A DNA stretch of 64,000 nucleotides from Glycomyces xiaoerkulensis (GTDB taxonomy: Bacteria; Actinomycetota; Actinomycetes; Mycobacteriales; Micromonosporaceae): the NCBI RefSeq assembly GCF_002798405.1, contig NZ_PGGV01000016.1:186001-250000 (forward strand), written 5' to 3'. The translations under genes were made by a program, and so were the position numbers. Shown here in pieces: positions 42,839 to 64,000 of this stretch; the first letter of the stretch is position 1; the number at the start of each line of letters is the position of its first letter. Below the pieces are notes generated by a model that saw only the letters and a list, made by a program, of their open reading frames with translations, was not told the origin of the DNA and ran no database searches.

Positions 42839-43522
42839 ATGAGTCGGGAGCCGAGGAGCTCCGAAGCCGCAGAGGCCAATGTTTCACGTGAAACATTGGC
42901 CTCTGTTTTCGGGGACGATGAAGAGCGGATCGACCGGGCCGAGGACTACGTCGGCCTGCTGCGGACCGCGGGGATCGAACGCGGGCTGATCGGTCCGCGG
43001 GAAGTGCCGCGCCTGTGGGGGCGCCACGTGTTGAACAGTGCGGTGGTCGGTGAGCTGATCGAGCCCGAGGCGGACGTGGTCGACGTGGGCTCCGGCGCGG
43101 GCCTGCCGGGGATCCCGCTGGCGCTGGCGCGCCCGGACCTCTGGGTGACACTCGTGGAACCGATGCAGCGGCGGGTGACCTTTCTCGAAGAGGTGGTGGC
43201 GCTGCTGGGGATCGACAATGTGGAAGTGCTGCGTGCCAGGGCGGAGGAGGTTTCGCCGCTGGGGAAGGCGGACGCGGTGGTCTCGAGGGCCGTTGCCCCG
43301 CTGGGCAGGTTGGCCGACTGGTGCCTGCCGGTGGCGCGCAAGGGCGGTGCGATGCTGGCGATCAAGGGCCGAAGCGCCGCGGAGGAAATCGAGCGAGACG
43401 AGGGGCGGATCCGGGCCGCCGGCGGCGGCGAGGTGACGGTGGAGCGGTGCGGCGCCTCGAAGCTGCGGGAGCCGGCCTTCACCGTGCCGACGACCGTGGT
43501 TCGGGCGGTTCGGATCCGCTAG
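42839..43522 (+). CDS. rsmG: 16S rRNA (guanine(527)-N7)-methyltransferase RsmG
   Basis: RsmG/GidB (227 aa) methylates G527 of 16S rRNA using SAM. It has LWGRHVLNS, the SAM-binding VDVGSGAGLPGIPLAL, VEPMQRRVTFLEE and VSRAVAPLGRL. The ATG at 42839, four nt after khpB, gives a short extra N-terminus; no later in-frame start fits. The first 20 codons contain a 36-bp palindrome with a parS core (42870-42905), read as NVSRET. Loss of rsmG gives low-level streptomycin resistance in other bacteria. Confidence 0.95.
   Translation: MSREPRSSEAAEANVSRETLASVFGDDEERIDRAEDYVGLLRTAGIERGLIGPREVPRLWGRHVLNSAVVGELIEPEADVVDVGSGAGLPGIPLALARPDLWVTLVEPMQRRVTFLEEVVALLGIDNVEVLRARAEEVSPLGKADAVVSRAVAPLGRLADWCLPVARKGGAMLAIKGRSAAEEIERDEGRIRAAGGGEVTVERCGASKLREPAFTVPTTVVRAVRIR
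42870..42905. promoter_or_regulatory. Extended parS palindrome (possible terminator)
   Basis: A 36-bp perfect inverted repeat with the parS core TGTTTCACGTGAAACA at 42880-42895 and 10 symmetric flanking bases on each side. TTTT follows at 42906, so the + strand resembles an intrinsic terminator inside the first codons of rsmG. Confidence 0.9.
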
Positions 43523-43733
43523 CGGTATCGCCCTGAGGTCGATCACGACCCGGGGCGGCCACCCCTGAATGTCGTCCAAGGGCCGAGCGGCCGACTGCTT
43601 CCATCTGAATCCCAGAGTGCATGTGGCCGAACGTGTTCGGTCTTTGAGACCCGGCGTTGTCCGCTTGGCTTGTACACGGGTCTGGGAGTTGGGCTAGTGT
43701 ATGGCTCGTAAGCTTCTTCAAGAACGGGGTCGA

Positions 43734-43764
43734 TGTTTCACGTGAAACATCCGGCCCGTAATCT
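43734..43764 (+). promoter_or_regulatory. parS overlapping the parA promoter
   Basis: A perfect parS core (43734-43749) covers the expected -35 position of a -10 TAATCT (43759-43764). That hexamer lies 6 nt before the GTG at 43771, so ParB binding should compete with RNA polymerase. Confidence 0.7.
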
Positions 43765-43770
43765 GTGGCG

Positions 43771-45174
43771 GTGAATGTGCGCGACCCCCTTCCTCCAGAA
43801 GATCGTGAACAACAGAGCTCCCTTGGCGGCGATACCCCTGCTGAGCGCCGCATCAAGGACGTCCTCGATGCCGCTGTGAGCGAAGAGCAGTCCCCTCCTC
43901 GGCGGCGGTACCGAGAAACTTCCGAGTCGCCGGGTGGCGCAGCACCGGGCTACGGCTCCGCTGGGACAGAATCGTTCCCTGAGGAGACCGGGCCGGGCGC
44001 TCAGTACGCGACCGACGAGACGGACCCGGTTCTCCCCGGCAAGAACGAACTGCCGAACCACAGCGGGGAACGGGACGAAATGCGAAAGCCCACATCGAAA
44101 GCGGATAGGTCCGGACGTCACACCGCGCGTGAGGCCGCCGCCTCCGGCGCCGACTTCCGGCAGGAAGAGATCCGGGAATCCCATGGCTATGAGGTGGGCG
44201 CCGCCGAAGGCGGTGCCGCATCCGGGTTGGAAGAACGCAGCGGGGAGATCCCGCAGCAATCGGATCCGGCCGGAGACGACCTCCCGCTGGCTCGGGAGGC
44301 GAAGCGGGCCGTGCGGGTGCTGAATCCGGCCGGAAGCGTCTCCATGCCGCGGCCGGCGCATCGGCGAGTGATCGCGGTGGCCAATCAGAAGGGCGGGGTC
44401 GGCAAGACCACCAGCGCCGTCAACATGGCCGTCGCGCTGGCCCTCCACGGCAACCGCGTCATGGTCGTCGACTTGGACCCGCAGGGCAACGCCTCCACCG
44501 GGCTCGGCGTCGAGCACGGCGCGGGACTCAACAGCGTCTACGAGGCCATCGTCGACAACGCGCCGCTACACGAGGTCGCGCACCGGGTCGAAGGCATTCC
44601 CTCGCTCTACTGCGTTCCGGCCACGATCGATCTGGCCGGCGCAGAGGTCGAACTCGTCAACGTGGTTGCACGTGAAGCGCGGCTCCGGAAGAGCATCGCC
44701 GCCTTCGAGGGCGAGGTCGACTACATCTTCATCGACTGCCCGCCCTCGCTGGGTCTGCTCACGGTCAACGCGCTCGTCGCGGCCGAAGAAGTCCTCATTC
44801 CGATCCAGTGCGAGTACTACGCGCTCGAAGGGCTCGGCCAGTTGCTCCGGAACATCGAGCTCGTCAAGGCGCACCTGAACTCGCGCCTGAGGGTGTCGAC
44901 GATTCTGCTGACCATGTACGACAAGCGGACCAAGCTCGCCGATCAGGTGGAGCAGGAGGTGCGCGGCCACTTCAACGAGATCGTGCTCGACTCGGTGGTG
45001 CCGCGCAGCGTCCGACTCTCGGAGGCTCCGGGTTACGGCCAATCGATCATGACTTACGATCCTGGATCTCGGGGTGCGACGAGCTACTTCGAGGCGGCCG
45101 AGGAGATCGCCCTCCGGGGCGCGAAATCAAGTTCGCGGCGGCAGAGTCAAACGAGCGAGAAGGGTGGGAACTAG
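43771..45174 (+). CDS. parA: Chromosome partitioning ATPase ParA
   Basis: ParA (467 aa) uses ATP-driven DNA binding to move ParB-bound origins. A proline-, glutamate- and glycine-rich, probably disordered N-terminal extension of about 195 residues precedes the ATPase domain, longer than in most ParA proteins. The domain has the deviant Walker A QKGGVGKTTSAVNMA, DLDPQGNASTG, DYIFIDCPPSLGLLT and SEAPGYGQSI. GTG codons at 43765 and 43771 are both in frame; TAATCT points to 43771. It is 3 nt before parB, with a parS in its promoter. Confidence 0.95.
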   Translation: MNVRDPLPPEDREQQSSLGGDTPAERRIKDVLDAAVSEEQSPPRRRYRETSESPGGAAPGYGSAGTESFPEETGPGAQYATDETDPVLPGKNELPNHSGERDEMRKPTSKADRSGRHTAREAAASGADFRQEEIRESHGYEVGAAEGGAASGLEERSGEIPQQSDPAGDDLPLAREAKRAVRVLNPAGSVSMPRPAHRRVIAVANQKGGVGKTTSAVNMAVALALHGNRVMVVDLDPQGNASTGLGVEHGAGLNSVYEAIVDNAPLHEVAHRVEGIPSLYCVPATIDLAGAEVELVNVVAREARLRKSIAAFEGEVDYIFIDCPPSLGLLTVNALVAAEEVLIPIQCEYYALEGLGQLLRNIELVKAHLNSRLRVSTILLTMYDKRTKLADQVEQEVRGHFNEIVLDSVVPRSVRLSEAPGYGQSIMTYDPGSRGATSYFEAAEEIALRGAKSSSRRQSQTSEKGGN

Positions 45175-45177
45175 TCG

Positions 45178-46290
45178 ATGACGGCGACGAAACGTGGAGG
45201 GCTCGGTCGCGGGCTCGGGGCGCTGATCCCGACGGGCCTGGCCGAGGACATGACCACTGAAGCCGAGGAGATCGACGAAGCTCCCCAGAAACCGAACGGA
45301 ACTCCGCAGCAGGCGGTGCCGAGCGAGCGCGACGTTTCACGTGAAACATCGCCGGCGGAGACCGCCGATGTTTCACGTGAAACGGAGCCCGAGCCGGAGG
45401 ACGAGGGCGAGACCGCACCGGAACTGGTTCCGGTACCGGGCGCCAGTTTCCGCCTGATTCCGGTCGAGGAGATTTCCACCAACCCGAAGCAGCCGCGGCA
45501 GGTTTTCGACGAGGATCAGTTGGCCGAACTGGAGACGTCCCTGTCGGAAGTGGGGATGCTGCAGCCGATCGCGGTGCGCGAGCGGACCGACCCCGAGGCG
45601 GCGGCCGATGCCCACGGGGCGCGCTACGAACTGGTGATGGGCGAGCGGCGTCTGCGCGCCGCGACCGCGCTGGGGTGGGAGACGATTCCGGCGATCATCC
45701 GGAAGACCACCGATCAGGAGCTGCTTCGGGAAGCGCTGCTGGAGAACATCCACCGGGTCGAGCTGAACCCGCTCGAGGAAGCCGCCGCCTATCAGCAGTT
45801 GCTCGAAGAGTTCGACGTGACGCAGGAAGTGCTCGCCAAGCGGATCGGTCGGAGCCGTCCGCAGATCTCGAACATGATCCGGCTCCTGAGCCTCCCGGGG
45901 ACGGTCCAGACGAAGGTGGCCGCCGGCGTGCTCACGGCGGGCCACGCCCGCGCTCTGCTCGGTCTGGAGAACAACGACACCCAGGAGCACATCTCCGAGC
46001 GGATCATCAGCGAGGGACTGTCGGTCCGCAGCACCGAAGAACTCGTGACCGCCTGCCGGTTGGAGGAATCGGAATCACCCGAATCCGCGGAGCCGAAGGC
46101 GGAGGCCAACCGACCGGCGCCGAAGGACCGGATCAAGGCCCCGGGGCTGGAAGAACTGCGGGAGCGGCTGTCCGACCACTTCGAGACGAAGGTCAACGTC
46201 ACGTGGGGCCGGAAGAAGGGCAAGATCGTGATCGAGTTCGGCTCCCTGTCCGACCTCGACCGGATCGTCGAGCAGATCGGCGTCGAGTAG
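45178..46290 (+). CDS. parB: Chromosome partitioning protein ParB
   Basis: ParB (370 aa) binds parS, loads as a CTP-dependent clamp and spreads. It starts MTATKRGGLGRGLGALI, then has a disordered linker; the CTP domain includes NPKQPRQVF and the arginine patch GERRLRA. The recognition helix-turn-helix is near EVLAKRIGRSRPQISNMIRLL and the C-terminal dimerisation region near residue 330. Two near-perfect parS copies lie within the linker, encoding DVSRET twice. It follows parA by 3 nt and is followed by a parS-like site and a 44-bp palindrome. Confidence 0.96.
   Translation: MTATKRGGLGRGLGALIPTGLAEDMTTEAEEIDEAPQKPNGTPQQAVPSERDVSRETSPAETADVSRETEPEPEDEGETAPELVPVPGASFRLIPVEEISTNPKQPRQVFDEDQLAELETSLSEVGMLQPIAVRERTDPEAAADAHGARYELVMGERRLRAATALGWETIPAIIRKTTDQELLREALLENIHRVELNPLEEAAAYQQLLEEFDVTQEVLAKRIGRSRPQISNMIRLLSLPGTVQTKVAAGVLTAGHARALLGLENNDTQEHISERIISEGLSVRSTEELVTACRLEESESPESAEPKAEANRPAPKDRIKAPGLEELRERLSDHFETKVNVTWGRKKGKIVIEFGSLSDLDRIVEQIGVE
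45333..45384. promoter_or_regulatory. Two parS-like sites inside parB
   Basis: Two 16-bp sites (45333-45348 and 45369-45384) each differ from parS at one outer position (C for T at position 1; G for A at position 16). They are 36 bp apart centre to centre, in phase, each translated as DVSRET. Confidence 0.8.
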
Positions 46291-46396: not shown

Positions 46397-46440
46397 CGAC
46401 GATGGGGTGGGGTTCCAACTGGAACCCCACCCCATCGTCG
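46397..46440. terminator. Bidirectional terminator between parB and a GNAT gene
   Basis: A perfect 21-bp inverted repeat with a 2-nt centre (effective loop about 4-6 nt) lies in the gap between convergent genes. No T-run is present on either side. Confidence 0.75.
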
Positions 46441-47937: not shown

Positions 47938-47973
47938 CGGCCGCCGATGTTTCACGTGAAACATCGGCGGCCG
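47938..47973. promoter_or_regulatory. Extended parS palindrome (bidirectional terminator)
   Basis: A second 36-bp perfect inverted repeat, with parS core TGTTTCACGTGAAACA at 47948-47963. It is the only structure in the 56-bp gap between convergent HIT-like and ddl stops. Confidence 0.9.
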
Positions 47974-57640: not shown

Positions 57641-59065
57641 ATGTCTGACAACAATAGTGGTAACGAAATCACAGTGCCTCACGTAGCCGACGCGCTGGGT
57701 CGGGTGTTCGCCGACGCCGGATTCGAACTGCATCTGGTCGGCGGCTCAGTGCGCGACGCGATCCTGCGCCGGAGCGTGAACGACCTGGATTTCACCACAG
57801 ACGCCCGGCCCGAGGAGACCGAGCGGCTGCTGCGCGAGGCCTGTTCGACGGTGTGGACCACCGGCGCGGCCTTCGGCACCGTCGGCGGGCTCTTCCACGG
57901 CGTCCAGGCCGAGGTGACGACCTTCCGGGCCGACGCCTACGACCGCGTCAGCCGCAACCCCGTCGTCCGGTACGGCGACACCCTCGTCGACGACCTGGAG
58001 CGTCGCGACTTCACCATCAACGCCATGGCGGTGTCCCTGCCCGACCACGCCTTCTGCGACCCGTTCGGCGGCATCCGCGACCTGGCCCAGCGCACGGTCC
58101 GCACCCCCGCGAGCGCCGAGTCCTCCTTCGCCGACGACCCGCTGCGGATGCTGCGGGCCGCCCGCTTCGCCGCCCAGCTCGACTTCGCGATCGCGCCCGA
58201 GGTGCTGGCGGCGATGCGCGACATGGCCGCCGAACTCGACCGCATCACCGCCGAGCGCATCAGGGACGAATTCTCCAAGCTCATGCTCGCGCCCGACCCG
58301 GTGATCGGGATCCGGGTGCTGATCGAGACGGGCCTGGCCGAGCGGTTCGTGCCCGAACTTCCGGCGCTGCGGATGGAGATCGACGAGCACGCCCAGCACA
58401 AGGACGTCTACGAGCATTCGCTGCGGGTGCTGCGCAACGCGATCGGGCACGAGGACGGCGGCCCGGACCTGATCCTGCGGATGGCCGCGCTGCTGCACGA
58501 CATCGGCAAACCCGAGACCAAGGGCGTCACCAAGGGCGGCAACGTCACCTTCCACCACCACGACGTGGTCGGCGCCCGCCTGGCCCGCGCGCGCATGCGG
58601 GCGCTGCGCTTCCCCAAGTCCGACATCGCCTCGGTCTCGCTCCTGATCGCCCTGCACCTGCGGTTCTACGGCTACGGCGACGCCGGCTGGACGGACTCGG
58701 CGGTGCGCCGCTACGTGACCGACGCCGGCGCCGAGTTGGAGCGGCTGCACAAACTGGTCCGCAGCGACTGCACCACCCGCAACCGGCGCAAGGCCGACCG
58801 GCTCCAGCGCGACTACGACCGGTTCGAGGACCGGATCGCCCGGGTCCGCGCCGAGGAGGACCTGCGCGCGGTCCGCCCCGACCTGGACGGCAACGCGATC
58901 ATGGAGCTGCTCGGCATCGGACCGGGCCCGGCGGTCGGCAAGGCCTGGAAGCACCTCAAGGAGCAGCGGTTGGAGCGGGGTCCGCTGAGTCGAGAGGAGG
59001 CCGAGGCCGAACTGCTGGCGTGGGCCGAGGCCGAAGGAATCGCACCGCGTCGCGACGCGGATTGA
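57641..59065 (+). CDS. cca: CCA tRNA nucleotidyltransferase
   Basis: Class II CCA-adding enzyme (474 aa) that completes tRNA 3' ends; neither tRNA gene here encodes CCA. The nucleotidyltransferase head has VGGSVRDAIL and NDLDFTTDA with the metal-binding D-x-D. RRDFTINAMAV and DDPLRMLRAARFAAQ mark the neck. An HD phosphohydrolase domain with LLHDIGKPET sits in the tail. The gene is divergent from murJ and its 3' end overlaps the convergent GT87 gene by 110 nt. Confidence 0.95.
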   Translation: MSDNNSGNEITVPHVADALGRVFADAGFELHLVGGSVRDAILRRSVNDLDFTTDARPEETERLLREACSTVWTTGAAFGTVGGLFHGVQAEVTTFRADAYDRVSRNPVVRYGDTLVDDLERRDFTINAMAVSLPDHAFCDPFGGIRDLAQRTVRTPASAESSFADDPLRMLRAARFAAQLDFAIAPEVLAAMRDMAAELDRITAERIRDEFSKLMLAPDPVIGIRVLIETGLAERFVPELPALRMEIDEHAQHKDVYEHSLRVLRNAIGHEDGGPDLILRMAALLHDIGKPETKGVTKGGNVTFHHHDVVGARLARARMRALRFPKSDIASVSLLIALHLRFYGYGDAGWTDSAVRRYVTDAGAELERLHKLVRSDCTTRNRRKADRLQRDYDRFEDRIARVRAEEDLRAVRPDLDGNAIMELLGIGPGPAVGKAWKHLKEQRLERGPLSREEAEAELLAWAEAEGIAPRRDAD

Positions 59066-60452
59066 GGATCTCCCAGACCACGAACGCGCACATGGCCGCC
59101 ACCGCGAGCCAGCGCGCCGAGGCCGCGGTCAGGAACGTCCATTCGGGTATGCCGCGGCCGTCCTCGGCCGAGACCTGCAGCATCTTGCCGTAGAAGGCGA
59201 TGAAGTAGCCGATCTCGGCGATCTGCCAGACCAGGAACATGCCCCACTTGGGGCGGGCCAGGACCGCCAGCGGCAGCAGCCACAGCACGTACTGCTGGGA
59301 CCAGACCTTGCCGAACAGGAGGAACGCGGCCACCACCAGGAAGCAGAGCTGGGCCAGGCGCGGGACCACGTCGTCGCCGGGTTCGGCGCCGCGGTGGGCG
59401 AAGTAGCCGAGCCCGGCGATGGCCAGGCAGGAGAGCGCGAACAGCACCAGGTAGGCGTCGTTGACGAATTCGGGGTTCCACAGCTCTTCCCACCCGAACA
59501 GTCCGCGCACGACGTACCAGCCGGTACCCCAGTCGACCGGGCGCTCGGAGTTGAGCTCGAAGAACCGCAGCCACGAGTCCCGCCACAAGGCGGCGACCGG
59601 GGCGTTGATCGCGGCCCAGGTGACCGCGGCGGCGGCGGTGGCGATCAGGGCCCGCAGCAGGCGCCGCTGCCGCAGCGCGAGGACCAGCAGCGGACCGATG
59701 AACAGCAGGGCGTAGAACTTGGCGGCCACGGCCAGGCCGAGGAACAGCCCGGCCAGCACCGGGCGGTCGCGCTGCCAGTACAGGAAGAACGGCATCGAGA
59801 GGGCGATGGCGAACAGGTCCCAGTTGACCGTGGCGGTCACGAGGACGACCGGGGCGGCGGCCAGCATCATCGCGTCCCACGGCCGGCCCGGTCGCTCCCG
59901 GGCCGAGGCGGCGACTTCGGTCAGTTCGGGGGAGCGCAGGTCGGTGCGGGTGCCGGCGGAGCGGATCTTGTAGAGGATCGCGATGGCGGCGATGCCGCAG
60001 GCGAAGAGCGTGACGGCGTTGAGGTGGTAGAAGACCGTGCCGCCGTCGACTTCGGCGATGTTGCCGACGCGGTAAGCGATCTGTCCGAGCACGCCCATGA
60101 ACCATCCGGTCAGTACCGGGTATTCGACCGGGTGGTCGCGGTAGGGGATGGCGCCCTCGTGGAGTCGTTCGCCTCCCCACAGGGCGCGGATGTCGGTGTA
60201 GCAGGCGTTGGTGTACTGACTCCAGTCGAGCCAGCCTCCTCCTGAACAGGGGTATTTCTGCAGCCAGGAGATGGCGAAGAAGATCAGGCCGGTGAAGAGG
60301 ATGACCCGCAGCGGCGTCCAGAAGCGGCGTCGCGGCGGGTTGTGGGCGTGGTCGCCGAGCGGCCCTCCGAGGAAACCGGACAGGAACCGGACGAAGCGGT
60401 CCTGGAGCGAGGGCGCGGCTGGCGCTGGGGGCTGTGGACGCGTCTGCGGCAT
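58956..60452 (-). CDS. GT87-like membrane glycosyltransferase (putative mannosyltransferase)
   Basis: A 498-aa polytopic membrane protein of the GT87/DUF2029 type. About 10 transmembrane segments are predicted. The periplasmic loop has YRDHPVEYPVLTG with the acidic residue motif used with polyprenyl-phosphate-mannose donors. Later regions are typical of the family: FLYWQRDRPVLAGLFLGLAVAAKFY and WSQQYVLWLLPLAVL. A Pro-rich C-terminal tail overlaps cca antisense. The substrate (mannosylated lipoglycan or another polymer) is inferred. The start ATG lies within a 35-bp palindrome. Confidence 0.82.
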   Translation of the reverse strand: MPQTRPQPPAPAAPSLQDRFVRFLSGFLGGPLGDHAHNPPRRRFWTPLRVILFTGLIFFAISWLQKYPCSGGGWLDWSQYTNACYTDIRALWGGERLHEGAIPYRDHPVEYPVLTGWFMGVLGQIAYRVGNIAEVDGGTVFYHLNAVTLFACGIAAIAILYKIRSAGTRTDLRSPELTEVAASARERPGRPWDAMMLAAAPVVLVTATVNWDLFAIALSMPFFLYWQRDRPVLAGLFLGLAVAAKFYALLFIGPLLVLALRQRRLLRALIATAAAAVTWAAINAPVAALWRDSWLRFFELNSERPVDWGTGWYVVRGLFGWEELWNPEFVNDAYLVLFALSCLAIAGLGYFAHRGAEPGDDVVPRLAQLCFLVVAAFLLFGKVWSQQYVLWLLPLAVLARPKWGMFLVWQIAEIGYFIAFYGKMLQVSAEDGRGIPEWTFLTAASARWLAVAAMCAFVVWEILNPRRDAVRFLRPRPTPAVRPRPPLDSADPAPTAAP

Positions 60453-60478
60453 GGGACACAGTATGTCCCATGCCGCAG
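60444..60478. promoter_or_regulatory. 35-bp palindrome over the GT87 start codon
   Basis: A perfect inverted repeat of 15 bp per arm with a 5-nt centre. It spans the ATG (60450-60452) and the TACTGT hexamer (60458-60463) 5 nt before it. It may be an operator or an mRNA hairpin. Confidence 0.75.
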
Positions 60479-60505
60479 GGCGCCGGTCACGGCCGGTGCG
60501 GGCGG

Positions 60506-63500
60506 CTAGTTGTCCTGCTGTCCGGGCGGATCCAGGGAATCGTCGGACGATGTTTCGTCATCGGTCGGCTCTTCTTCGCCGCCGTCGCCGCCACCGCCGT
60601 CGCCGCTGCTTTCGTCGTCGGTCGGCTCCTCGGTGCAGGGATCGAACCAGCCGCCGCAGTCCTCGTCGCCTTCGTCGCCGTCGCCGTCACCGGGATCGGT
60701 GGGGTCGGTCGTGTCGTCGCCGCCCTCGCCCTCGTCGTCGCAGTCCTGGTTGTTGCCGTTCCCGTTGCCGCGGCATTCGGCATCCTCGTCCTCTTCCTCG
60801 TCGGCGCCGCACTTGGGGTCGTCCTCGTTCTCCTGGCAGTACTTGCTCTCCGGGTCGATCGAGCCGTCCTCGTTCTCGATGTCCGAGGTGGTGGCCGTGC
60901 CCTTCTTGACCGGGCCCTCCCATTCGATGGTCTCCCAGCCCTCGGCGTCCTGCTTCTGCTCGAGGAGCCGGGTCATGGCGTCGTACCAGACCGGGTAGGC
61001 GGTGTTGGAGCCGTAGACGTGTCTGTAGTCGCCGTTCGGGTCGGAGATCGGGTCGGACTCGGAGGTGATGTTGCCGACCCAGGCGGCGATCGAAAGCTGG
61101 GGGATCGCGCCGACGTACCAGGCGTGGGCGTTGTAGCTGGACGGGTAGTCGTTGCCGTCCTTGTCCTTGCCGGTGGCCTCCCAGGTTCCGGTCTTGCCGA
61201 AGTAGGGGCGGCTGAAGGGCTCGGCCTGGGTCTCGCCGGAGATCTCCGAGCCGACCCACTGGAGGTCGCGGGCGGTCTCGACCGCGATGGCCTGCTCGGA
61301 GTGGAGGTCGCGCTTCGGATCCACGATTTCGCCGTCGCGGTCGCGGACCTCCTTGACGAAGTGGGTCTCGTTGTACACGCCGTCGTTGGCGATGGTGGCG
61401 TACATCGAGGCCATGTCGCGGACGCTGGTCGGGTACTGCCCGAACGCCAGGTGGTGGTAGAACGGGTCGGTCCCGCCCTTGTTGCCGATGGTGCAGCGGT
61501 CGGGTTCGCCGTCCTCGTCGACCACGAGCCGGCCTTCGTCGTCGGGGACCGGGTTGCAGTCGTCGTCGACCCGGATCGGGGCCTCCTTGTCGACGTTGCC
61601 GAGCTCGTCGACGACGTAGTCGCCGGCTTCGTCTACGGTGGCGGCGTGCATCGTGTAGGTGCCGTCGTCGTGGAGCCGGTAGGTGATGCTGACGTCGTTG
61701 GGTTCGCCGTCGGCGTCGAAGACCTGGACGGTCTGGCTCATCTGCTCCAGCCCCATCTTGTCGGCGTTGTCGAGGATGGTGCTGGCGTCGTACTTCTCGC
61801 TGATCGCGTACATTGGGGTGTTCTTCGACCTGCGCACGGCATCGGTGAGGGTGATGTCGAGCCGGCCCGCCGACTGGTTGCCGTTGCGCAGGGTGCAGTC
61901 GGGGTACTCGCCGCCGCCGATGCAGCTCTGGCTCGCGTCGTCGGTGAGCGAGTCGAACTGCCGCGGGGACTCGGCGTTCCACCACGATTCGATCGAGTCG
62001 TCGTTCTGGATGGCGGTGGCGGCGGTGATCATCTTGAACGTCGACGAGGGCGGGTGCGGTGACTCGGGCCCGGCCTTGTCGATGCCGAAGCCGTCGTCGC
62101 CGCCGTAGTAGCCGGCGACGCCGCCGGTGTCGGAGTCGATCGCGACCATCGCGTTGGTCATCGACGGGTCGTAGTCGTAGAGGGTGGCGTCCTCGTTGTC
62201 GTTCTCGAACTGCCAGTAGCCGTCGTCGGTCTCGATCTTCGCGGCGTCGTTCGGCGATTCGACGACCTCGCCGTCTTCGTCGACGTAGTCGCCGTCGTCG
62301 TTCGTCTCGAGCATGATCTCGCCGCGCGAGCCGGTCTGCTCCAGGGACTCCTGGATCTCCTCGTCGATGGTCAGGACGACCGAGTAGCCGCCTTCCTGGC
62401 CCTCGCCGCCGTACAACTGCTCCTTGGCGATGCCGTAGCGGTCGTGGAGCTCGTCGAAGATGTAGCCGTCCTGCTCGTTGACGATGAACCCCAGCGGCGT
62501 GTCGCCGCCCCAGGAGCCGCGGACCTCGAAGTCCTCGATGGGAGTGGGGAACTCGAACTCCTCGCGCTCGGACCGGCTGAGGTAGCCGGTCTCGACCATG
62601 GAGTCCATGGTGTGGTTCCAGCGGGCCTCGGCGGCCGCGCCCTCGTCGTCGGCGATGAACGGGTCGTAGGCGCCGTTGGGCGATTTCACCTGCATGACGA
62701 TGAACGCCGCCTCGGCGTGGTCGAGCTCGTCCAGCGGCTCGTCGAAGTAGACCTGGGCGGCGGCCTCGACGCCGGTGGCGCCGCGGCCGAAGTAGGCAAG
62801 GTTGAGATAGAACATCAGGATCTCGTCCTTGCTGTACTCCTGCTCCAGCTTCATCGCCATGACCGCTTCGCGGGCCTTGCGGCCGTATGAGATGTCGTCG
62901 CGGATCTCGGCGACCATGCCCGCGTACTGCTGGGTGATGGTCGAGGCGCCCTGGGTGTCGCCGCCGGTGACGTTGTTGACCAGCGCGCGCATCGTGCCCT
63001 GGTAGTCGACGCCGCCGTGGTCGTAGAACTTGCGGTCTTCGAGGCTCACCAGCGCCTGGGCGACGGTGTCGGGGATCTCGTCGGGGGAGTCGACAAGTTT
63101 GCGCAGGGTCTCGCCGTAGCCGCCGGCCTCGCTCGAGCCGTCGGCGTAGTAGAAGGTGCTGGACTCGCCGGCGCGGCGCACGTCCTGCGGCAGCGGCACC
63201 TCCTGGAAGAACCAGGCGCCGACGACGGTGATCGCGGCGACGAACACGACGGCGACGGCGATGAGGCCTGCGTAGATCTTCCGGCGGCGGCGCTTCTTCT
63301 TCAGCTTCTTGCGCTCGGCGAGGTCGTCCTCGCTCAGCGGGCCGGCTCCGGCGCGCCGCCTGCCGGCGGCCCGGCCGTGGCCGGGTCCGGCGGGGCTGAC
63401 CGGTTGCGGCTCGGGTTCGCCGAGGTCGATGGGGCGGGGGGATCCGACAGGGGCGCTGCCGGCGGCACCGCCCACGGAGGCCGAGCCGACCGAGGCGCGC

Positions 63501-63793
63501 CCGCCGCCGACCGACGCCGACCCTGAAGCCCGCCCGACCGAGGCGCTGCCGGAGGCCGGGCGGCCGTAGGCCCCGGGCCTGGCGGCGCCGGAGTGGGAGC
63601 CGTGGCGGGGCGGCTGCGGTTGCTGCGGTCCCCAGCCGTAGTCGGCGCCTCCCTGAGGCTGGTTCGGGGCGGCGCCCGGCGAGGCGGAGCCGCGCACCGA
63701 CGCGCTCCCGCGGGAACCTCCCCGAGGGGCGGCGTCGCCGAAGGGTCGTCCGTCCTCTGGGGGTGGAGTCGGACGATAACCGTAGTCGCTCAT
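60506..63793 (-). CDS. ponA: Class A penicillin-binding protein
   Basis: A bifunctional PBP (1095 aa). Residues about 1-170 are cytoplasmic and unusually long, with repeated (G)SASV(G/R) units. One transmembrane helix (about 172-194) leads to the GT51 transglycosylase with EDRKFYDHGGVDYQGTMRAL and the TITQQ motif. The transpeptidase has SxxK as STFK, SKN and FGKTGTWE. The C-terminal about 120 residues are acidic, low complexity, rich in Asp, Glu and Gly and include CRGNGNGN. It polymerises and cross-links peptidoglycan. I chose the ATG at 63793; a TTG 6 nt upstream is possible. The rest of the window (63794-64000) shows no gene. Confidence 0.95.
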   Translation of the reverse strand: MSDYGYRPTPPPEDGRPFGDAAPRGGSRGSASVRGSASPGAAPNQPQGGADYGWGPQQPQPPRHGSHSGAARPGAYGRPASGSASVGRASGSASVGGGRASVGSASVGGAAGSAPVGSPRPIDLGEPEPQPVSPAGPGHGRAAGRRRAGAGPLSEDDLAERKKLKKKRRRRKIYAGLIAVAVVFVAAITVVGAWFFQEVPLPQDVRRAGESSTFYYADGSSEAGGYGETLRKLVDSPDEIPDTVAQALVSLEDRKFYDHGGVDYQGTMRALVNNVTGGDTQGASTITQQYAGMVAEIRDDISYGRKAREAVMAMKLEQEYSKDEILMFYLNLAYFGRGATGVEAAAQVYFDEPLDELDHAEAAFIVMQVKSPNGAYDPFIADDEGAAAEARWNHTMDSMVETGYLSRSEREEFEFPTPIEDFEVRGSWGGDTPLGFIVNEQDGYIFDELHDRYGIAKEQLYGGEGQEGGYSVVLTIDEEIQESLEQTGSRGEIMLETNDDGDYVDEDGEVVESPNDAAKIETDDGYWQFENDNEDATLYDYDPSMTNAMVAIDSDTGGVAGYYGGDDGFGIDKAGPESPHPPSSTFKMITAATAIQNDDSIESWWNAESPRQFDSLTDDASQSCIGGGEYPDCTLRNGNQSAGRLDITLTDAVRRSKNTPMYAISEKYDASTILDNADKMGLEQMSQTVQVFDADGEPNDVSITYRLHDDGTYTMHAATVDEAGDYVVDELGNVDKEAPIRVDDDCNPVPDDEGRLVVDEDGEPDRCTIGNKGGTDPFYHHLAFGQYPTSVRDMASMYATIANDGVYNETHFVKEVRDRDGEIVDPKRDLHSEQAIAVETARDLQWVGSEISGETQAEPFSRPYFGKTGTWEATGKDKDGNDYPSSYNAHAWYVGAIPQLSIAAWVGNITSESDPISDPNGDYRHVYGSNTAYPVWYDAMTRLLEQKQDAEGWETIEWEGPVKKGTATTSDIENEDGSIDPESKYCQENEDDPKCGADEEEDEDAECRGNGNGNNQDCDDEGEGGDDTTDPTDPGDGDGDEGDEDCGGWFDPCTEEPTDDESSGDGGGGDGGEEEPTDDETSSDDSLDPPGQQDN

Positions 63794-64000
63794 GCTCAAC
63801 CATCCACGTGATTTGCCAGGTTATGGCCGCACGCCAGCGTCACGGCGCTCGCGAGCCGCCAAACGGCTTCGCCTTGGTCCCGCGCCCAGCGTGGGGGTGC
63901 CCGGTCGCGGCGGCATTTTGTCGATCGGCGGTCGCCTTCGTTCGACGACCCGGTGTCCCGCAGTCTCGCACACGCCAGCCAGGAGAAACCCACCAGATCG

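Follow-up and report, generated by a model that had tools for sequence, protein, structure and literature searches.

In IS10/Tn10, RNA that comes in from a neighbour folds back on itself and hides the start of translation, and the RNA made from the element's own promoter is without this fold. Promoter-in-stem blocks of translation have been described for the T4 genes e (lysozyme), soc, 49 and I-TevI, and in the case of gene e the read-through RNA folds over the initiation region, whereas the RNA from late promoters close upstream, which is without the 5' strand of the stem, is well translated (PMC3014915, in excerpt). Leaderless genes are common among Actinobacteria (PMC3160421, in excerpt), and TANNNT-type signals located about 10-12 bp before the start mark such genes (PMC3160421 and PMC3898074, both in excerpt). 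Moreover, Scharff et al. reported that a start independent of a Shine-Dalgarno sequence requires locally unstructured RNA and that this also suffices (PMC3121790, in excerpt). Because leaderless genes are common and starts lacking a Shine-Dalgarno sequence are usable in unfolded RNA, as far as these excerpts go, a closely packed leaderless gene may need a boundary.

A candidate for such a boundary is a perfect dyad in the window, i.e. the whole stretch of 64,000 nucleotides of Glycomyces xiaoerkulensis DNA that was analyzed. The dyad (60444-60478, minus strand) lies across the junction of two genes of the minus strand. Upstream is a ponA-type gene for a class A penicillin-binding protein (60506-63799, with Pfam Transgly and Transpeptidase matches and an uncertain start codon), whose stop codon is found 27 nt before the dyad, and downstream on the same strand is a gene encoding a GT87-family membrane glycosyltransferase of 498 aa (58956-60452; Pfam GT87, E 2.2e-12). 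Beyond the window, and divergent from ponA, are a PadR-family gene (L005) and a reading frame that, by eye, we take to encode an inositol-phosphate synthase-like protein. At its other end, the GT87 gene overlaps tail to tail by 110 bp (58956-59065) with a plus-strand gene (57641-59065), presumably tRNA-nucleotidyltransferase-like as judged by eye.

On the minus strand the whole dyad reads CTGCGGCATGGGACATACTGTGTCCCATGCCGCAG, that is, arm, centre and arm as CTGCGGCATGGGACA-TACTG-TGTCCCATGCCGCAG, with 100% complementarity of the arms over 15 nt (60444-60458 against 60464-60478) and 5 nt between them (60459-60463). The upstream (5') arm (60464-60478) is non-coding and conserved, and it would be missing from the mRNA of a promoter at the loop. 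The downstream (3') arm (60444-60458) contains the GT87 start codon (ATG, 60450-60452) together with codons 2-3; this ATG is the sole in-frame ATG, GTG or TTG among the first 20 codons, and a second ATG inside the dyad (60471) belongs to a different frame from that of GT87. The letters thus bear out the earlier note on this DNA, which had described a 35-bp palindrome with 15-base arms and a 5-nt centre enclosing the GT87 ATG. The same note had given TACTGT as the promoter hexamer, but the alignment of 22 Glycomyces genomes places the conserved -10-like hexamer two bases earlier, at CATACT (60460-60465), which ends 7 nt before the ATG; in this genome its first two bases fall in the upstream arm and the other four in the loop.

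When the window was randomized 60 times under a first-order Markov model, perfect arms of at least 13 nt with centres of 3-10 nt occurred on average 0.08 times per window, so arms of 15 nt should be rarer still. Nevertheless, the window contains further long dyads, namely parS-like sites and terminator-like hairpins, and the length of the dyad is therefore not special by itself. Three parS-like sites of the form TGTTTCACGTGAAACA surround parAB (42870-42905, 43732-43751 and 47938-47973), whose reading frames 43765-45174 and 45178-46290 have ParA-type and ParB Pfam matches; two of these sites are embedded in perfect palindromes of unusual length (18-bp arms), and TTTT follows the first of them. 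About 100 nt past the parB stop there is a perfect, terminator-like hairpin with arms of 20-21 bp (46397-46440) and no clear T run. As for the dyad at GT87, none of 4227 Rfam models matched at E <= 1 across 60200-60800, and no description of it was found in the titles and abstract openings of the open-access papers listed.

The dyad turned out to be a feature of the whole genus. Among the 20 named loci found with the GT87 protein, 19 came from Glycomyces and one from an actinomycete metagenome-assembled genome. All 22 genomes of the window's genus, taken here as Glycomyces, encode GT87 immediately behind a ponA gene of the same strand, and in each of them the dyad is placed between the ponA stop codon and the GT87 ATG, with the start codon in the stem; its absence from relatives, which had been named beforehand as grounds for giving up the proposal, was thus looked for and not observed. 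This conservation rules out a chance dyad. The distance from the ponA stop codon to the dyad core ranges from 24 to 67 nt (33 nt in L010), and within the first 20 GT87 codons a single in-frame ATG, GTG or TTG is present in 17 of the 22 genes, the remaining five having one more. The exact pattern matched in 21 of the 22 genomes, the other one (G114, locus L039) having a C·C mismatch, and the commonest form in the genus is GACGGCGGCATGGGCC-ACAATAG-GGCCCATGCCGCCGTC. Per-column conservation is mostly 1.1-2.0 bits in the dyad and mostly below 1 bit just upstream of it, and the central seven pairs, CGGCATG/CATGCCG, are invariant in all 22 genomes.

The complementary arms are kept by selection. Columns 17/27 of the alignment are C-G in 14 genomes and A-T in 6, the pair being broken in L050 and L053; columns 7/37 hold G-C, G·U or A-U; columns 6/38 hold G-C, G·U or, in the window genome, T-A; and columns 4/40 hold A-U, G·U, G-C or, in the window genome, where they are beyond its perfect arms, C·A. 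Both sides have changed in 4 of 16 pairs, and 95.7% of the cells are paired, a value as high as which was seen in 0 of 500 shuffles in a test that used the 19 distinct rows and ignored kinship. We also used a tree-based null, in which sites changed independently along a GT87 tree and each column kept its number of changes. In a test with seven pairs, from which pair 3/41 at the outer end and the invariant pairs were left out, 147 of 154 cells were paired, a number that about 0.2% of the 3000 runs per setting attained; when all 16 pairs were taken in, 339 of 352 cells were paired, and under four settings of 2000 runs each 0-0.1% of the runs attained this, with the same verdict on complementarity. 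Inner mismatches are present in L009/L010, L039, L050 and L053; L039 also has an outer one, and 6 of the 19 distinct rows lack the outermost pair, 3/41.

Selection on complementarity does not itself say that the pairing takes place in RNA. The cells include nine G·U and one A·C, but this excess was withdrawn as evidence for RNA because the difference G·U minus A·C was not unusual in the tree-based null with all 16 pairs (P 0.19-0.55), despite a P of 0.02-0.04 for the small number of A·C in the test with seven pairs. In addition, since the central seven pairs never vary, they give no evidence of pairing and could be a protein site.

The -10-like hexamer is kept along with the arms. It reads CACAAT, CAGAAT or CATACT in the 22 genomes (CACAAT in most relatives), its A2 and T6 are invariant, and in all of them its first base lies 13 nt before the ATG and it ends 7 nt before it, roughly the place expected for the -10 of a leaderless gene. 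The hexamer begins with C instead of the T of TANNNT, and a standard sigma-70 scan of the locus found no promoter, and therefore the putative promoter is proposed from the position and the conservation of the hexamer. A motif of the form [GA]GCA[AGT]GAT[GT] precedes GT87 in 19 of 24 loci from other genera of the family, usually with an ATG a few bases later, which suggests that this layout is older than the dyad. One of the 24 loci, L021, starts within the gene, and the stretch was reread as L109. No long dyad comparable to that of Glycomyces was found enclosing the GT87 start in the other-genus loci read, i.e. these 24 and the seven stretches L105-L111. L025, L026, L034, L035 and others share a conserved two-gene layout consisting of ponA, a hairpin, a leaderless-type GGCANGATG motif and the GT87 ATG.

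The reading that we favor, with slightly less than even confidence, is that the dyad is a transcription-unit boundary that acts in RNA and that GT87 is translated only from its own promoter at the loop. Read-through from ponA would cross the 27-nt gap, copy both arms and fold into a strong hairpin that would bury the GT87 AUG and leave GT87 untranslated from the ponA mRNA, and the same hairpin may also end or weaken the ponA transcript. The putative GT87 promoter, having its -10 at the loop, would start RNA at or beside the AUG; such an RNA would be without the upstream arm, could not fold, and would be translated as a leaderless mRNA. Because the promoter-like hexamer is at the loop, the hairpin would be possible only in RNA entering from ponA and not in the leaderless mRNA of GT87. 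Structure predictions for the 22 sequences are consistent with this proposal: the 43-nt element has a predicted fold energy of -26.7 to -39.1 kcal/mol, and the predicted probability that the AUG is unpaired is on average 0.0006 (0.0005-0.0024) in the read-through RNA versus 0.77 (0.43-0.99) in the leaderless RNA. The sequences show the constant location of the dyad, the selected complementarity of its arms, the hexamer kept at its loop and the lack of another strong copy; pairing in RNA, promoter activity, a leaderless start, read-through from ponA and concealment of the AUG inside the cell are inferred. The need of Shine-Dalgarno-independent starts for unfolded RNA (PMC3121790, in excerpt) gives a reason to hide an internal AUG; on the other hand, even an open internal AUG may serve poorly as a start if it has no Shine-Dalgarno sequence, and there would then be less need to hide it.

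The earlier note had proposed that the same element could be both an operator in DNA and a start-hiding hairpin in mRNA. As to the hairpin, what stands is a selected structure that holds the start codon in all 22 genomes, and its proposed action is narrowed to RNA read through from ponA. As to the operator, a dimeric or tetrameric repressor bound to the half-sites CGGCATGG and CCATGCCG would block RNA polymerase at the -10 and the start. We regard such an operator as unlikely, even though its expected feature, symmetric conserved half-sites over a putative promoter, is present: the half-sites lie on either side of the -10-like hexamer, near which the dyad is centred, with 21 bp from centre to centre, and the non-coding upstream half, CGGCATG, is as invariant as the rest of the central seven pairs. 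A DNA dyad would also show symmetric changes in its arms, and the G·U-minus-A·C test does not favor RNA. Furthermore, a short GGCA-N3-TGCC symmetry surrounds the -10 in many of the other-genus loci. Upstream of GT87 in L105-L108 a short partial symmetry round the -10 can be seen by eye, perhaps a smaller form of the arrangement, the best example being ACGGC-ATGATGA-GCCGT in L105, just before the GT87 start. Against an operator stands the variation of the outer arm positions, which differ between species yet stay complementary, something that a fixed protein site does not need; moreover, no regulator is tied to the dyad. A PadR-family gene lies beyond ponA, and the idea that its product is the binder was dropped.

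The number of copies also argues against an operator, although a looser one could be missed. The genome search for similar dyads that had been suggested at the outset gave one strong copy per genome, both with the exact pattern and with a covariance model, and the extra exact-pattern matches have other centres; a mobile repeat was rejected on the same result. The covariance model, built from these 22 sequences and with 150 candidates per genome scored, had its best match at the GT87 locus in all 22 Glycomyces genomes, and in a set of 354 genomes of the family it matched at E <= 0.01 in 33, the 22 of the genus and 11 others, the latter weakly. Eleven weaker matches were inspected (9 in Glycomyces and 2 in other genera), and, with genes taken as stop-to-stop frames with GC3 > 0.85, seven were found 6-14 nt past a gene end, three inside such a frame and one near none; the seven indicate that hairpins of this make are used just after gene ends. 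Gene-end hairpins that share arm letters with the dyad were observed in other Glycomyces genomes, at about 1238-1285 of L113 (GCGGCATGGGAC/GTCCCATGCCGC) and about 1194-1224 of L120 (GGCGGCATGGG/CCCATGCCGCC).

A regulon was considered and rejected. GGGACA-N5-TGTCCC was found with up to 2 mismatches at 88 places in the window's own genome, and the closest second copies among the matches listed, L002 and L003, have 1 mismatch. L003 lies across the start of another gene and, by eye, is symmetric no further than its core. A half-site search with 3 mismatches in the 22 genomes gave 185-371 matches per strand per genome and 55-115 for a backwards control, but the word content of this control differs, which makes the comparison unfair, and the half-site counts therefore support no conclusion.

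According to another explanation, the dyad is a plain ponA terminator, its U-tract minimal or missing, onto which the GT87 promoter has moved over time; on this view the stem holds the start codon simply because a -10 at the loop fixes a leaderless start about 7 nt further on. A stable GC-rich hairpin after a stop codon, as expected of a terminator, is indeed found in the 22 sequences, TTTC or TTCC follows the stem in some Glycomyces, and the seven gene-end matches of the model point in the same direction. Additional support comes from the other genera, where ponA is upstream of GT87 in 21 of the 24 loci and at least nine (L020, L025-L028, L030 and L033-L035) have a separate perfect hairpin between the ponA stop codon and the GT87 promoter, three of these nine hairpins being followed by 8 nt with 5 or more T. 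However, the Glycomyces dyad is without a consistent U-tract: the 10 nt that follow the aligned stem contain 1-5 T in the 22 sequences and a single T in the window genome, and a terminator scan that required 5 T did not call it. A terminator would likewise not need a -10-like hexamer at its loop, yet the hexamer is kept in every genome of the genus, and we consider a plain terminator unlikely. The ponA-GT87 gap of Glycomyces is short, a second hairpin of at least 6 perfect pairs is present in it in 7 of the 22 genomes, none of them T-tailed, and the dyad lies on the promoter-like site itself; judging from these layouts, the separate ponA terminator and GT87 promoter of other genera may have fused in Glycomyces.

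Finally, an RNase might cut the ponA-GT87 message at the hairpin and so release a GT87 mRNA that resembles a leaderless one. Such a processing site would fit a long stem between two same-strand genes but would leave the -10-like hexamer at the loop unexplained, and we consider it very improbable.

If the dyad is a boundary acting in RNA, promoter, hairpin and start codon together would make a very compact one, and a -10 at the loop with an ATG in the 3' arm would be a signature to seek in other leaderless genes. The more specific proposal, a chromosomal, genus-wide control of the T4 lysozyme type acting on a leaderless gene, in which a promoter at the loop and a start codon in the stem would fully uncouple GT87 from the ponA-type gene, appears possible, with the balance of probability somewhat against it; in such a case, one sequence of 35-39 bp would set both where GT87 transcripts start and which transcripts are translated.

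Compared with known systems, the dyad resembles an intrinsic terminator in being a strong GC-rich hairpin soon after a stop codon, but it differs from one in having no consistent U-tract and in holding a promoter-like hexamer and a start codon. GT87 is like leaderless actinobacterial genes in having a -10-like hexamer shortly before its ATG and, by eye, no evident Shine-Dalgarno sequence; unlike the leaderless genes with TANNNT, it has CANAAT or CATACT, enclosed in a long conserved dyad. With IS10/Tn10 the proposal for Glycomyces shares the folding back of incoming RNA, although there the gene belongs to a transposable element and here it is a fixed chromosomal gene. In mechanism the proposal resembles T4 gene e, since in Glycomyces, too, the read-through RNA is predicted to bury the start, and RNA from a promoter at the loop would lack the upstream strand; the T4 case was shown by experiment (PMC3014915, in excerpt), whereas the likeness of Glycomyces to it comes from sequence and prediction. 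Unlike T4 gene e, Glycomyces GT87 is apparently leaderless, with its -10 at the loop. In T4, as excerpted in the same source, the Shine-Dalgarno sequence, the AUG or both are hidden and the late promoters time lysis, whereas in Glycomyces the start codon in the stem is that of a chromosomal cell-envelope gene behind a penicillin-binding protein gene.
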